Shown here: positions 8,913 to 36,461 of the stretch, piece after piece
Position numbering within the stretch: the first letter of the stretch is position 1
Layout: every line of letters starts with the position of its first letter
Made by a program: the position numbers and the translations under genes
Source of the DNA: Cochliopodium minus
Taxonomy: Eukaryota; Discosea; Himatismenida; Cochliopodiidae
NCBI GenBank assembly: GCA_024220525.1
Contig: JAMYWO010000220.1
Location: forward strand, 1,834 to 39,604
Length of the DNA: 37,771 nucleotides
Reading direction: 5' to 3'
Notes under the pieces: model-generated
What the model saw: only the letters and a program-made list of their open reading frames with translations
Database searches by the model: none
What the model was told of the DNA's origin: nothing

Positions 8913-10791
8913 TTATATTTGATCCACAAAACAGTTTGCTTTCTTTTTGGATTGTCCTCCTGTATCACAAAAAAATTAAAATTTTTTTTATTTTTTAAAA
9001 AAAAAAAAAACTAATTTACAGCCTCCACCGTCTCCGCCATCACCTCCATCACCTCCATCATCTCCTCCAATATCAACACTTATTACACCCTTTAAAAATC
9101 CACCTAAAAAAAAAAAAAAAATTAAAAAAAAAAATTAAAAAAAAAAAATTAAAAATAAAATTAAAAATAAAATTAAAAAAATTAAAAAAAAAAAATTAAA
9201 AAAAACAAAAAAAAAATTGTTACCAAGTTTTGACCCTACTTTTTTCATACCTTTACCAACATTCTTCTTGGTCTTCTTGGACTCTTCTTTCTTTTCCTTT
9301 TTCTTTTTTTCGTCTTTTTTATGGGAAATGGGATCGTAGTCTTTTCTGATTCCGGAGTAAAATCCTTGTGCTGGATAAAAAAAATAAAAATTAAAAAAAA
9401 AAAAAAAAGAAAAAAAGAAAAAAATTAATCGATTTTACATGAAACACTGTACACGATGGGGTCACATGGAGGAATGGTGAAGTTGGTAGTGATTCCTATT
9501 TCGATTTCTCCTTTGGTAGTCTTCTCCAACTTGTACCATTTGATGAGCTCCAGACCAGAGGTAACTCCAGCAAGGGGAACAGCTTTTAAAAAAAATTAAT
9601 CATAAATCAAATTAGATAAATGAGAAATTTGATAAAAGAAATAAATTTAAAAAAGAAATTTTTTTTTAATCCTCCGAGTTTCTCCGAGTATTCTTTTAAA
9701 AAATTTATTTTTACCAATTTTTCCAAGTGGATCATGTTTTCCCACTGCATCATGATCAAAGAGTTCGACAGGAATGATGGTTTTTTGATCAATATCCTTT
9801 AACTCAACAGAATAGGTTCTAATTAAAAAAATTTTTGTTGTTGAGAATAGATAATGGTGCATAAAAAAAAAACTTACTCATTCCATACTGGATTCAAGTT
9901 CTAAATTTAAAAAATGAATTAAAAAAATGATTTATAAATTTGGAAAAAAGAATTACTTTCTTTTGCACTTTAGATTTCCATTTTTTGTCTTGAAAATCAA
10001 TTTTTACGTATGGATCGCTTTTTCCGTTGGTATCCGCAGCTTTCTAATGAGTTTTGAGGAGAGTTATAATTTTAAAATTCATATTAAAAAATTAGTTGAA
10101 GAAATTTCTGATTAAGAAAATAAAATTATATCTTATTTCATACGAAAAAATTAAAAAATAAAATATTCAAATTAAATGTTGAAGAAAAGAAAAGGATATT
10201 TTTTTGATACCAGATCTCTGGCTTGCCTAATTTTGATAGTCACAGTACCCTTTTCGATTTTTCCTTGCATTTGAGGAGAATATCCTTGTTGTGGAGACAT
10301 TTGAGGGGAATATCCTTGTTGAGGAGGATATCCTTGTTGTGGTGGATAACCTTGTTGAGGTGGATAACCTTGTTGAGGAGGATATCCTTGTTGTGGTGGA
10401 TATCCTTGTTGTGGTGGATAACCTTGTTGAGGTGGATATCCTTGTTGAGGTGGGTATCCTTGTTGAGGATATTGTTGTGGAGACATTTGAGGTGAATATC
10501 CTTGTTGAGGAGGGTATCCTTGTTGAGGATATTGTTGTGGTGAATATCCTTGTTGTTGATATTGTTGGGGTGGATATCCTTGTTGAGGTGGATATTGTTG
10601 TGGTGAATATTGTTGTTGCCCAGGCATTTGTGGTGTATTATTTCCTGGCATTTGAGTATTATTGCCTGGCATTTGTTGACCGGTCATTTGTTGTCCAGGC
10701 ATCTGCTGTCCGGGCATCTGTGGTGATTGATCTTAAATTTAAATTGTTAAAAACCGTAATATATTTTTTAAGAGATGTTCTTACTATTCAT
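8913..10791 (-). CDS. C2-domain protein with GYPPQQ-repeat N-terminus
   Basis: Exons run 10791-10785, 10731-10211, 10043-9957, 9900-9878, 9818-9715, 9582-9439, 9370-9224 and 9103-9020, plus a terminal piece. The first coding exon is 7 nt (Met-Asn plus one base); its GTAAGA donor joins in frame to [10 protein letters not shown]. Residues 1-160 are MPGQQ and [11 protein letters not shown] repeats as in annexin VII-type tails. About 163-280 form a C2 domain ([46 protein letters not shown]) with the aspartates expected for Ca2+ binding. A Lys-rich helix and a GGDGG tail follow. It should bind membranes in response to calcium. The 3' end is uncertain: splicing 9019-8962 creates a TGA across the junction (372 residues), whereas a less canonical donor upstream would add [13 protein letters not shown] and end at 8913. 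Confidence 0.85.
10265..10640 (-). repeat. 18-nt coding minisatellite (GYPPQQ units)
   Basis: About 15 near-identical 18-nt units read on the minus strand as GYPPQQ or GYSPQQ, with a few SPQM interruptions. The DNA is as regular as the protein, so the array probably expands and contracts. It is part of the C2 gene's second exon. Confidence 0.9.
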
Positions 10792-11078: not shown

Positions 11079-13355
11079 TTAATAAAAACCAACTCTTTTT
11101 AAAGATTGTGTAAGCTCTTTGGATACGAGGGACAATTTGGGGAAGTTGTTGAAGGGGGAAACTTTCAAGAGATCGTAGATCTGCTGGTAAAATTCGCAAC
11201 AAGAGATAACAGAGCCATTTTCATCCTTTAACTTGGAGTTAGGAACTTTTTTGATGGAAGTATTATGTACAACATTGATTCTCTTGGCCACTTGTAAACC
11301 AACAGAAATATAATCTTCAAAGTTAGACTTGATGAGATTAATGATAGAAGGTAAGATGACACTACAGGAAGAAAGGGAGAAATATTTATAAGAAGTTGAA
11401 GGGATGACGTTGAGAATGTCGTGTAAGAGGGAGAGATCGTTGGAGTTGGCCATTTGGGAGATGGCTTGGTCGTAGTTGCCTTGGTTCCAAAGTAACTTGA
11501 TGGCCTTGATGTTGTTGAGCCTGTTGAGGAGAAGGGAGCTGAGTTTGAGGTGGTCGGAGTTCATTTTCTCGATCAATTCGTTCTCGCTCTTGATAGGTTG
11601 GAAATGCTAAGTGAAAAATTCAATTTAAAACGAGAAATTACAAGTTAACTGAAATATTGAAAAATGAAATTAAAAATTCTTTTTTGCACCGAAATTTGAA
11701 AAGATTTTAAAATAATTAAGAAAAAGATTAAAAAAAAAATACTTTTTGAAAGGTTTGGAATGTTAATCCAACGGGATAGTCTCTTTCAGTTGGAACAATG
11801 CAAGAAGTAGACTCTTCTTTCGAGGAGGAGGATTGAGTGGTGTTGGATAGATCCTGCTTCTTGAGGGTAGAAGGAGACTTGGTGAGGTTTTGCAAAGGCT
11901 TCTCGTTCTCGTCTTGAAACGGTTTCTCACTCTTGCGAGTTTTTGAAGAAGTTTTCGATGACAAAGAAGAAGAAGAGGTTGTAGTTGTTTTGGAGGTTTC
12001 TTTTTTCTCAAGTGAATTTCTGGTCTCCACTTTTTCTCTGTTGTTGCTTTCCTCCTTTCTTTCTTGTTGGACTTCTCTTTTTGTGGAGAGATGCGAGTTT
12101 TCTTGTGGAGATTCTTTCTTTGAGTGTTGTGTTCTTTCTTGAGGAGAGATGTCTTCATTGTGATCAATTTTAATTTTTGGAGAAGGTTCTTTCATTTCTT
12201 TTTTTGTCATCTCCATTTTCTCTTGTTTTTGTTTCTCGATGGTTTCTGTATTTGGAAGATCCCTCTCCTTTTTAACGACTTTAGAAGAAGAACTGAAATG
12301 TGTATTGATCAATGAATCCAAAGAGGTGAAAGATGCAGACAAGTTTTGTTTGGATTTATCAGAGTACACAGTGATCAGTGTGTTTCGGGAGATCTTTGAA
12401 TCGAACACGTGTTCTTGCTCTGTTTTTACGTTTGTTTCGTTTTCAAGATTTCTCGTATTTCTCATTTTTGTCTGTTTATCATGCACTGAGAACAAGATGG
12501 ATCCATCTTTGCTGAACAACAGTGATTTTGATGATTCCTCTCTTGATTGGGAGGATGAATTCAATGTGAAGGATTTCACATCCCATAATCCTACTCCTCC
12601 ATTTTGAGATATGCTTGATAATATGAAATCTCTTGGATGAAAGGCCATGCTCTTTATTTCATTCAAATCTTTGTTGTGTAGGGTATTTATTATTTTTCCC
12701 GCGCAAACATCCCATATCTTTATTTGTCCAGATAGATCTCCTGATACTATCCATTTTGCATCTGGTGATATATTCAAGGAGGTGATAGCATTTGGTGAAT
12801 GTTCTTTGTATGATTGCAAACATTGCCTATTTTTCATATCCCACAATCTAATTGTACCCTCAGAATCTCCTCCAACCAACAATTGATCTCCAAATGGATA
12901 CCATTGCAAATAGGTGAATCCCTGATGATCGTTAAATGTTCTTACCACATTCTGCTGTTGAAGATCCCATACCTTTATAACCCCAGATGAGCTCGCAGCT
13001 ATCAAATTACACTTTTTATTGAAATTCAAATGATCTATTTCACCAACATGACCTCCCAACTTCTATAATTTGAAATTAGGTTTGATGAATTTAATTGGAT
13101 TTGTTTATCAATATTTAACTTTATTGTTGAGACAAAATATTTTTTTTTACCAATAATGGTTCCTTTTTATTTAATGACCATATATTGATTATAGATTGAG
13201 TATTGGCGGTTGCCAACAATGTACAATCCACACCGAGAGTTGCTGTTGTTATTGTATCATTCTTTTCCAAGTCAAAAGAAATATCTAGTTGAAAAGAAAT
13301 GGATAGATTAAAATAACCAATTATATAAGATTTGGATAAACAAACTTTGAAACAT
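11079..13355 (-). CDS. KATNB1: Katanin p80 regulatory subunit (WD40, con80)
   Basis: Exons 13284-13151, 13062-11743 and 11606-11079 (TAA) are solid. A first exon at 13355-13346 (Met-Phe-Gln plus one base, donor GTTTGT) is a candidate only. With it the protein is 663 residues, against about 655 in human KATNB1. Residues about 5-250 hold WD40 repeats (IKVWDL, IRLWDM, IKIWDV, VGLWDV). A long Ser/Lys/Glu-rich linker follows, then the con80 domain (about 485-660; DLSLLHDILNVI, FEDYISVGLQVAKRI). The con80 domain binds katanin p60 and targets the AAA microtubule-severing enzyme. Its presence implies dynamic microtubule arrays. The gene lies head-to-tail with PLAC8 (stop at 13608), both on the minus strand. 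Confidence 0.93.
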
Positions 13356-13607: not shown

Positions 13608-14462
13608 TTAATTATGGAAATCTTTACAAAGTTTGGCAGGTAAACCAGCATTAACCAATTCACGGACCTATTTTGATTGAAAGAATTTGAATTCAATATT
13701 AGAATTTAAGAAATATTTTTTTACTTCTTGAATTTGACTGCAACATCCACAAAATAAAGAACAACAAAAATCGCTGCAACAATCTCCTTTGATATCTACT
13801 CTCTTTCTGACATCACCTCTTGTGCAGCATCTGTAAATCAATGCTCCAAATCCTGCACAAAAGAATACCAAGAGAAAACTCAAACAGCACTAGTATTAAT
13901 TTATAATTAATTAAAAATTGAGAATTTTTGGAAAATAATAAATTTGATAATAAAGTTGAATATAGATAATATAAATTTTTTTTTTGCCTCCGAACATCCA
14001 CATGTCTCTTTTCCATTTGCTACAGCATTTAGTTTACAATCTTGACCTAAAAAATATAAATTTATATTTTGACTATATCAGGTTTGGAAATAGATGAGAT
14101 CTAAATTAATTTCTTACATGGAAAACACCAATAACTGTAAGAAAGAATTCGATTATAAAAAAAACATTTTAATAGTTCATTGATTTACCTAACACAACCT
14201 TTGAAAGAAGAAAATTTAAGGAATTAAAAAAATTCTAAAAAAGTTACATTGACCACAGTCCTAGTATTCATATAATTGATTTCAATCTTTTGTTTATATT
14301 TAATTTTTTTACCTCACAACCTAATAATTTTATTGATATTGAAAACCCAAATAAAAAACTTTCTCTAATTTTTCTTACATCCACATGTTCCATACGTCCA
14401 TTCTAGAGATATTTTGAATCTTTTGAAAAATAAAATATGAAATTTTTAATACCTTTTCCCAT
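13608..14462 (-). CDS. PLAC8-family Cys-rich protein encoded by micro-exons
   Basis: Nine exons: 14462-14453 (10 nt), 14402-14379 (24), 14320-14313 (8), 14260-14248 (13), 14198-14189 (10), 14134-14118 (17), 14046-13988 (59), 13889-13725 (165) and 13667-13608 (60). They total 366 nt, or 121 residues plus TAA. Every junction keeps frame and rebuilds the PLAC8 pattern: EWTYGTCGC, then CFPCQDCKLNA, then a hydrophobic segment LSFLLVFFCAGFGALIY, then RGDVRKRVDIKGDCCSDF and CSQIQEVREL. PLAC8 proteins are small membrane-associated Cys-rich proteins linked to metal handling and organ-size control in other eukaryotes; the role here is unknown. Intron 13987-13890 starts with GC. No alternative reading gives a longer protein in this interval. 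Start choice: the ATG at 14462 follows an in-frame stop. Confidence 0.88.
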
Positions 14463-34244: not shown

Positions 34245-36461
34245 ATGGATTTGAATCAATATGAAACATGCGTTACAAATGGATTAGAATGTGAATCATA
34301 TGTATTTATTTATCCAGAAAATTTTAAATAATTCCTAATTTTTAAAAATTTCCTGAGAGGAAAAATATAAGAGAAAATTAAAAGATGGTGTTAATAATAA
34401 GTGTATAAGAAAAATTCTCTTCGAATTATTATGGCTCACCAAAAATATGCTCCAAACGTTTATTATATCTTTTTTCTCAATTTTTTTCTTACAAATAATT
34501 AAAAAATTAGGATTTGAAATATAATTTGTTGATCACAAGGACAAAACAACTATTGGAACACAAATATGAATTGATACAAATATTGCCCATCTTTTTGAAG
34601 CATTATAGACTATTCAAACCTTGTCATTTTGGTCTGATAGATCTGATATTCGACAGAATAAATTGGTTAAAGGATGATAAGATATATGAAGAATTTATCT
34701 TAAAAATAATTTCTGAAAGCTCCTTTACGGAGATATGTGTCTATCATTTGCTCAAAGCATTGAAGCCACAATTCATAATAGATCCAACAAACAAAAATGA
34801 TACAAAAATGGGAAAAGCAGAATTGATTAAAACATTAAAATTCGATTATAAGCTTTCTGTTGCAATCGCAAAGAAAGTGCATGAATTATTGAAAAAAATA
34901 TTGAATTTTGTGCCAACCGCAATTTCTTTGTTGCTCAAATTGATTGATAATCTCTATCCTGTTCCCTCTTCTGACACTATCTATCATTCATGGTATGTAA
35001 AAAATCTCCTTCAAATTTCTAATTGGTGCCAAATTACAAGGAAGGCAGTATATTCATCCATCTTTTCTTCTCTATTAAAAATTGATGTAAGAAAAAAGCA
35101 AAAAAAAAAAACTTCCTCTTTAAAAAATTGTTTTTAAATTAACAGGCATTGGAAGATATCGCCGATGATGAAGAAGAAGAAAACCATAGAGATCAATACG
35201 CAGTAGACCTTGACGATGAAAATGAGGAGGAAGAGGAGTCGAGCATTCATAATTCTCATTCCTTTGACAATATACACAAAGCAGAATCCATTTTGCTCCA
35301 AATAATAACGCATCTTGACAACATGGATATCAATTGTTTTGATGATAAATATTTCTTCGATCTTTTGTTTATATTCGAAGAAAGAATCATCAATTCTTTG
35401 CATTCAAGAAATGCACAGTTTGTATTATTTTATTTTTGCACCAAGAGATCCGATTACTATCCTCAAAAATTCATGGCCTACCTCCTCAACAAGATCATCC
35501 GCACCAACAGTCCAACTCAATCTCGTATCGCTGCAATGGGTTGCTTATCCTCTTTTGTCGTAAGATTTGCAAAGATTCCAAGCAATCTTATCGTCGAATG
35601 CTTTGATCTCCTCATCAAATGGTCGATTGATTACACTGAAAAAAATTCCAAGAACAATACTACCCAATACAACACCCCTCCTGATGTCACTGCCCATTCC
35701 ATCTATTATGCTCTTTGTCAATGCATCATTTATATTTATATTTGGAAGAGTAACATTCTCACTTCTCAACACAATTCACAAGAGCTTCAAAACAACTTTA
35801 GAAAGATTATCATCCATCACTTCAATCCCCTTATTGTAAAAAAAACAAATTTTTTTTTCTTTTTATTTATGTTTATGATTGTGATCATCCCTATATTTTA
35901 AAAATTATTCTAATAAGAATATATCTTTATTGTTTCACATTTTCTTGCGCATGCTCTTTGATTTCCAATACCTTTTTTATTTTTTTGTTTTAATTTATTT
36001 TGGAATTGAAGAAAAATTAAATTTCATAAGTACTTAATAGTATTAAATGATCAGACTTTTTTTTTCTTATAATTTTCTCACAATAAATCTTTCTTTCAAA
36101 CTATCAGGTATGCAAGAGAAGAGTGGTGGAAGAATTCATCAAAATAACTTCCAGAAAAAACATTTGCAAAGAATTAGAATCCTATTACAATGAAATCTCC
36201 AATGTCTTGTCACATGTCAAGTTTGATACCAAATTCAACTTTCATTTCGATCCTTTGGAAGATTCAAAATGTTTTGATCTCTATATTTCAAAACATTATA
36301 ACACATGGGAGGATATCAATGACTATGAAGATGAATCAGACGATGATCTAAAGAATAACATGTCTGAAAATTCTTACAATTCATTCAATGAGCCCAGTTC
36401 TTTGATTCCCAAGAATGAATCTTCATTGAATTTCGAGATTGATGCAAACATTGATCTTTAA
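34245..36461 (+). CDS. RRN3: RRN3, RNA polymerase I initiation factor (TIF-IA)
   Basis: Exons 34511-35086, 35146-35835 and 36108-36461 (TAA) are firm. A first exon at 34245-34301 joins in frame (GTATTT donor) and gives 558 residues, somewhat shorter than the 651 of human RRN3. The HEAT-like helical fold is recognisable: YVKNLLQISNWC, LLKIDV, then an acidic loop (DDEEEENHRD, DDENEEEEES) as in the family, then QSRIAAMGCLSSFVVRFAKI and SIYYALCQCIIYIY. RRN3 bridges Pol I and the promoter-bound core factor, so this is an essential gene for rRNA synthesis in the nucleolus. The C-terminal 40 residues are acidic and Ser/Asn-rich. The 5' exon is the least certain part. Confidence 0.9.

Follow-up and report, generated by a model that had tools for sequence, protein, structure and literature searches.

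Discussion of micro-exons usually centres on animals (neurons) and plants, where their recognition is held to need special help. A PLAC8 gene of Cochliopodium minus raises the question of whether a run of exons of 8–24 nt can build part of a conserved protein in a protist, and how such a run would be spliced. The gene lies in a window of 37,771 nt (the whole stretch of DNA that was analysed; positions 1,834 to 39,604 of contig JAMYWO010000220.1, with 17–41% G+C per kb), which belongs to a genome of 44.65 Mb in 598 contigs. An earlier note on this DNA had proposed that the N-terminal half of the protein was encoded by six exons of 8–24 nt. Analysis of the exon/intron anatomy confirmed five consecutive internal micro-exons (24, 8, 13, 10 and 17 nt; each no longer than 25 nt and with splice sites on both sides, as judged by homology and splice signals) in the N-terminal Cys-rich part of the gene, while the initial 10-nt piece, counted before among the six, is no whole exon but the coding end of exon 1.

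In the DNA, the gene comprised 121 codons and the stop codon, split into nine coding pieces that run from 14462 to 13608 on the minus strand. They are listed below with the introns that separate the micro-exons; L003 and L009 are paralogues on other contigs, and score losses are in units of the spliced alignment.
14453..14462, minus strand: coding part of exon 1, 10 nt, ATGGGAAAAG, encoding M-G-K-; intron site and phase as in the L009 model
14379..14402, minus strand: micro-exon 2, 24 nt, encoding -E-W-T-Y-G-T-C-G-C-; 3' boundary recovered de novo with each of the two paralogues, 5' boundary resting on intron 1
14313..14320, minus strand: micro-exon 3, 8 nt, GTTGTGAG; spliced alignment, score loss 30.3 if barred
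14248..14260, minus strand: micro-exon 4, 13 nt, GACTGTGGTCAAT; spliced alignment, score loss 38.7 if barred
14189..14198, minus strand: micro-exon 5, 10 nt, GTTGTGTTAG; spliced alignment, score loss 52.3 if barred
14118..14134, minus strand: micro-exon 6, 17 nt, TTATTGGTGTTTTCCAT; spliced alignment, score loss 49.0 if barred
13988..14046, minus strand: exon 7, 59 nt, followed by a GC-AG intron whose site and phase equal those of a GT-AG intron in L009
13725..13889, minus strand: exon 8, 165 nt; spliced alignment
13608..13667, minus strand: exon 9, 60 nt including the stop codon; intron site common to L003
14047..14452, minus strand: stretch of introns 1–6 with micro-exons 2–6 between them; introns all GT-AG, 15–20% G+C

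Introns 1 to 8 measured 50, 58, 52, 49, 54, 71, 98 and 57 nt, and both the lengths of about 49–71 nt and the AG and GT boundaries that had been predicted around the tiny exons held for introns 1–6. Intron 7 (13890–13987, minus, 98 nt) was of the GC-AG type (GAG/gcaaaa ... ctag), a call supported by the GT-AG intron of L009 at the same site; the other seven of the eight introns were GT-AG, and six of the eight donors started with GTAA. With GT(GC)-AG ends and donors complementary to U1, which is known in this genome as a candidate only, these introns are predicted to be of the U2 type. In the unspliced frame before GAA-TGG, a TAA lies 15 codons upstream with no ATG between, and intron 1, or another upstream exon, is therefore needed.

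The next gene downstream on the same strand (window 11731–13062, minus) encodes a WD40 protein with a long low-complexity tail, which we take to resemble katanin p80. At window 10172–10732 (minus), QGYPPQ- and QMPGQ-type motifs are repeated many times in tandem within an open frame, and a match to the RNA polymerase I initiation factor RRN3 (4.9e-17) lies at window 34511–35134 (plus).

PLAC8 family members are small Cys-rich proteins, often membrane-associated, and carry a Cys-rich motif of the type CC-x(4)-C-x-P-C. The full product of the window gene matched the Pfam PLAC8 profile (PF04749) with 60.8 bits and 2.6e-16 over positions 1–101 of 101 (curated cut-off 34.4), which bears out the family assignment made before; the product without the micro-exon part scored 43.6 bits and covered positions 36–101. 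Its motif CCVSYWCFPC, like CCTSLWCFSC in L003 and CCCSLWCCPC in L009, is close to the family pattern. The frame was intact across all 121 codons, in agreement with the chaining phases and the 121-residue product of the earlier proposal.

Spliced alignment was performed with a program that allowed introns from GT or GC to AG with a minimum of 35 nt and set no minimum exon, and the translated paralogue L003 or L009 alone was given as reference. Either paralogue returned the exons of 8, 13, 10, 17 and 59 nt exactly, at the coordinates first assigned to them, plus the 3' boundary of the 24-nt exon. The 5' boundary of this exon fell at the Trp codon with L003 and one base before the annotated position with L009 (models began at 14400 or 14403), and the exon was recovered at 24 nt with L009 at the lowest intron cost; this end is imprecise because neither reference forces intron 1. 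For the chance level, the 654 bases upstream were dinucleotide-shuffled with the last 6 bases, including the acceptor AG, kept. Whichever paralogue served as reference, and at all four intron costs used, the real score was reached by 0 of 1000 shuffles (z 16.1 to 38.3).

The score losses listed above for the 8-, 13-, 10- and 17-nt exons were obtained with a profile of the other three PLAC8 genes. A false 10-nt piece inside exon 8 arose with L009, where the program bridged an indel in the reference by a false intron, and with the three-paralogue profile; barring it cost 39.3 because that profile lacks the segment, so that score loss alone is no proof where a segment is missing from the reference. 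Donors were ranked with a matrix from the Ras introns described below. Those of introns 1–6 took ranks 1, 2, 3, 4, 5 and 7 among the 23 GTs of the stretch, ranks that are not wholly independent since a GTAA-leaning prior had been used to find the introns behind the matrix, and the acceptors, which were less sharp, took ranks 1, 2, 4, 6, 9 and 13 among 19 AGs. The donor of intron 4 was weak (2.8, versus a 5th percentile of 3.7 for Ras donors). Since the micro-exons were modelled by homology, full-length products are favoured and alternative forms would be missed.

In AT-rich DNA any GT and AG can be chained, and spurious tiny exons did appear in shuffled Ras loci (0.51 per locus) and, as one false call, inside exon 8; a decaying gene, with a micro-exon chain that is a by-product of search freedom or a set of remnants, might give such a picture. 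However, no shuffle matched the real score, the spurious Ras exons lost at most 15.6 units when barred, the 121-codon frame is intact and the Pfam profile is covered end to end, and a pseudogene is almost certainly the wrong reading. Alternative splicing, by which the micro-exons would vary the N-terminus or switch the gene off through nonsense-mediated decay, could make use of the 24-nt exon, which is frame-neutral and could be skipped, and of the frameshifting micro-exons, which might act as on/off switches. We consider it quite improbable, since skipping of the 8-, 13-, 10- or 17-nt exon leads to a stop at codon 12, 29, 30 or 26, respectively, the micro-exons encode the Cys motif that is kept in L003, L009 and L007, and the MEG exons of schistosomes are, in the available part of PMC10526429, mostly multiples of three between introns of 0.1–5 kb. 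Retention of any one of introns 1–6 leads to a stop at codon 16–33 (codons 16–74 for introns 1–7 overall); with intron 8 retained, the stop falls at codon 121, its own last codon, and the C-terminus is replaced.

In worm and mouse cells, the splicing of microexons has been linked to PRP-40/PRPF40A. The splicing machinery of this genome looks ordinary, as far as can be predicted from sequence: a U1 snRNA candidate (L094, C134:43488-43650, minus; 5' end ATACTTACCTG) scored 36.7 bits versus an Rfam cut-off of 69.5, and a locus on C128 (L092) with two WW and two FF domains is a PRP40-like gene. In C. elegans, according to the available text of PMC8378409, the only two microexons found to be PRP-40-independent have introns as small as 49 nt, a 58-nt intron swapped in freed another microexon from PRP-40, and intron definition was proposed for microexons, short introns removing the need for PRP-40. 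The two introns flanking a plant microexon were inferred to leave consecutively in the accessible part of PMC8831610.

On the basis of the short introns, the ordinary-looking machinery and these two partly available papers, we propose that the micro-exons are spliced serially and constitutively by intron definition. U1 and the branch-site/3' splice-site factors would pair across each short intron, and exon length would consequently matter little. Since only 8–24 nt separate neighbouring 3' and 5' sites, both are unlikely to be occupied at once, and adjacent introns would probably leave in turn. The micro-exons would be constitutively included, since skipping of the 8-, 13-, 10- or 17-nt exon breaks the frame and retention of any of introns 1–7 creates a premature stop. 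That the ordinary major spliceosome would handle the run in this way, and that high turnover of short introns would have produced the arrangement, is in our judgement very probable. The intron-definition splicing suggested at the outset fits the 49–71-nt introns and the C. elegans data, the mode itself being predicted. As an interpretation of the PLAC8 gene the earlier note was essentially right, the splicing being a prediction from DNA; the GC-AG intron 7 and the micro-exons in other genes of the same genome are additions to it.

The origin of the arrangement was approached through the paralogues. Profile or protein search found further PLAC8 loci on C31 (L003), C106 (L009), C1 (L007) and C82 (L004), and a weak match (E 0.016) on C159 (L013). 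Identity to the window protein was 56/110 aligned residues for L009, 51/106 for L007 and 55/113 for L003. The region of the micro-exons is one exon in the paralogues, of 73 nt in L003 and 127 nt in L009. The aligned models of four PLAC8 genes held 18 distinct intron sites, and four of these were common to two genes: (6,1) and (50,0) to the window gene and L009, (7,2) to L009 and L003, and (105,0) to the window gene and L003. Five sites between columns 14 and 30 occurred in the window gene only and were absent from L003, L009 and L007, which have other introns nearby. Tiny exons were also modelled in the paralogues, namely one of 19 nt in L009 (loss 69.3) and two of 13 and 17 nt in L007 (losses 18.8 and 38.0), each loss standing without its own null. 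A 4-nt exon (AATG) in L009 is probable and was returned only by the reference translated with that exon; when the reference was the window protein or the three-gene profile, AAAGAATG was read without the first intron. The first two exons of L007 (ATGG and 16 nt) were assigned by eye, with matching phases and no null. Its 15-nt exon and its intron of 263 nt are also uncertain, as the model became a 42-nt exon at this place with two references and may still lack an exon. The L003 model starts at its Trp codon, the N-terminus of L004 is doubtful, and no model of L013 passed the score cut of 90.

The five-intron arrangement suggests that short introns turn over rapidly in this genome and, as the simplest reading, that they were gained in the lineage of this gene: gain in one lineage is simpler since three about equally distant paralogues lack all five sites, in a comparison made without an outgroup. 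If instead the ancestor had all these introns, the paralogues would have lost them together by recombination with cDNA, and plant microexon genes are indeed known, from the available part of PMC8831610, to lose all introns by reverse transcription. Such a loss would account for L003, L009 and L007 being without the five introns, yet it would have to explain why three of three paralogues, all about equally distant from the window gene, lack every site; we regard it as unlikely, though deserving some weight. The five introns are unique to the window gene among the four compared, measure 49–71 nt and fall within 17 alignment columns, and three of the five split a Cys codon into T and GT, features that would suit one recent burst of introner-type insertion. 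However, when the genome was searched at the DNA level with the entire region, by a method that skips very common words, no clear intron copies turned up elsewhere and, within these limits, no near-identical ones. Apart from the region itself, the hits were a 50-base AT-rich one on C11 (84%) and one of 20 bases to the region's own opposite strand. The match on C11, the sole one at another locus, lies in AT-rich DNA in which no gene or intron was seen by eye. An introner burst is thus rejected as very improbable, and gain through high short-intron turnover is the reading that we retain.

Ras genes of the same genome also carry tiny exons. At least 164 Ras-family matches were found (150 of 771 candidates scored), many of them incomplete pieces, and there is a large expansion of predicted GTPases in the 44.65-Mb genome. 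Twenty loci (L071–L090) were picked because their Pfam match lacked an end, and they were aligned to a profile of 19 Ras proteins from the same genome; L054, L060, L063 and L069 were spliced-aligned also, outside this count. Of the alignments, 18 started at profile position 1 and one at position 2, and that of L081 stayed partial. Among 42 internal exons, 14 were no longer than 25 nt (11–24 nt), a share that overstates the genome average because of the way the loci were chosen. The 298-nt exon of L075 is internal only through a doubtful 20-nt end piece. Tiny-exon counts alone were rejected as evidence, since shuffled Ras loci gave 0.51 per locus versus 0.70 in the real ones; score loss on barring separates real from spurious exons. 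Thirteen of the 14 tiny exons, in 10 of the 20 loci, lost at least 25 units when barred and the other (12 nt, L075) lost 14.9, whereas the 550 spurious tiny exons of 1000 shuffled loci lost at most 15.6.

An 18-nt Ras exon between offsets 147 and 165 recurred in L074, L075, L082 and L087. When L082 and L087 were compared, their consecutive exons of 18 and 20 nt were identical at 16/18 and 19/20 positions, a higher share than in the larger adjoining exons (38/57 and 199/300), whereas none of the five introns exceeded the top identity of 50 shuffles. The Ras introns of the 20 loci (n = 62) had a median of 68 nt with quartiles of 58 and 95. Exons of 13–20 nt encoded, wholly or partly, the P-loop (L083), WDT (L074, L075, L082, L087) and AGQE (L082, L083, L087) motifs. 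A further Ras match (C1:633782-634150, minus) lies inside an open frame of 14711 codons, which, if real, would be a giant uninterrupted gene. On the same contig, a [FeFe]-hydrogenase large subunit (C1:398263-399345, minus; 1.1e-32) points to a possibly anaerobic lifestyle. Together with the many Ras-family matches it would tentatively fit an anaerobic protist of the kind of Anaeramoeba, in whose genomes numerous Rab GTPases are encoded (PMC11550330).

Proteasome genes were represented by 15 loci, one per listed gene, and contained one supported tiny exon (13 nt, L030, loss 30.5); four internal calls of no more than 30 nt lost 1.0–4.5, and alignments were poor at several loci (L024, L029, L032, L038). 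The Prp8 domain lay within a single open frame of 1653 codons. With one supported proteasome exon and Prp8 in a single frame, tiny exons recur yet are far from universal. For the genome as a whole we lean towards the view that many conserved genes are built from frame-asymmetric, constitutive micro-exons of about 8–25 nt with introns of about 50–70 nt, in runs of up to five, that the spliceosome would have no practical lower limit of exon size, and that introns would be gained and lost fast. If this is true, such a genome lets the lower exon-size limit under intron definition be measured, could serve to test the in-turn splicing of adjacent sites and could show the speed of intron gain. Gene models of such genomes can miss conserved motifs, for example the P-loop, WDT and AGQE of Ras.

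Several features of this gene have counterparts in systems known from the available parts of the literature. Exons down to 1 nt are already known (PMC8831610, PMC12940212), and the protist Creolimax was screened for microexons of 3–15 nt (PMC4739763). Among the literature matches listed, judged by title and the start of the abstract and with most subscription papers outside the scope, no report of micro-exon runs in a protist was found. The schistosome MEG genes, as described in the accessible portion of PMC10526429, resemble the window gene in their long series of very short exons and their small proteins. The MEG proteins are secreted and come from exons that are mostly multiples of three and introns of 0.1–5 kb, whereas four of the five micro-exons here are not multiples of three, the introns span 49–71 nt and the product is a PLAC8 domain. 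Plant microexons are likewise coding exons of 1–15 nt in conserved domains, often missed by annotation, but where adjacent they form pairs (e.g. 5 and 12 nt), in contrast to the five in a row of the window gene (PMC8831610 and PMC12409088, as far as their text was available). Mammalian RPS24 has three microexons between two exons, although these are alternatively spliced and in an animal gene (PMC11162997, in part), and the 4-bp exon of MPC1, also an animal gene, is a constitutive microexon that is not a multiple of three (PMC9929638, in part). By its full-length profile match, and probably by its Cys motifs, the window product is like other members of the PLAC8 family (PF04749). What sets its gene apart from the systems above is the combination of five consecutive micro-exons, four of them frame-breaking, between introns of 49–71 nt.
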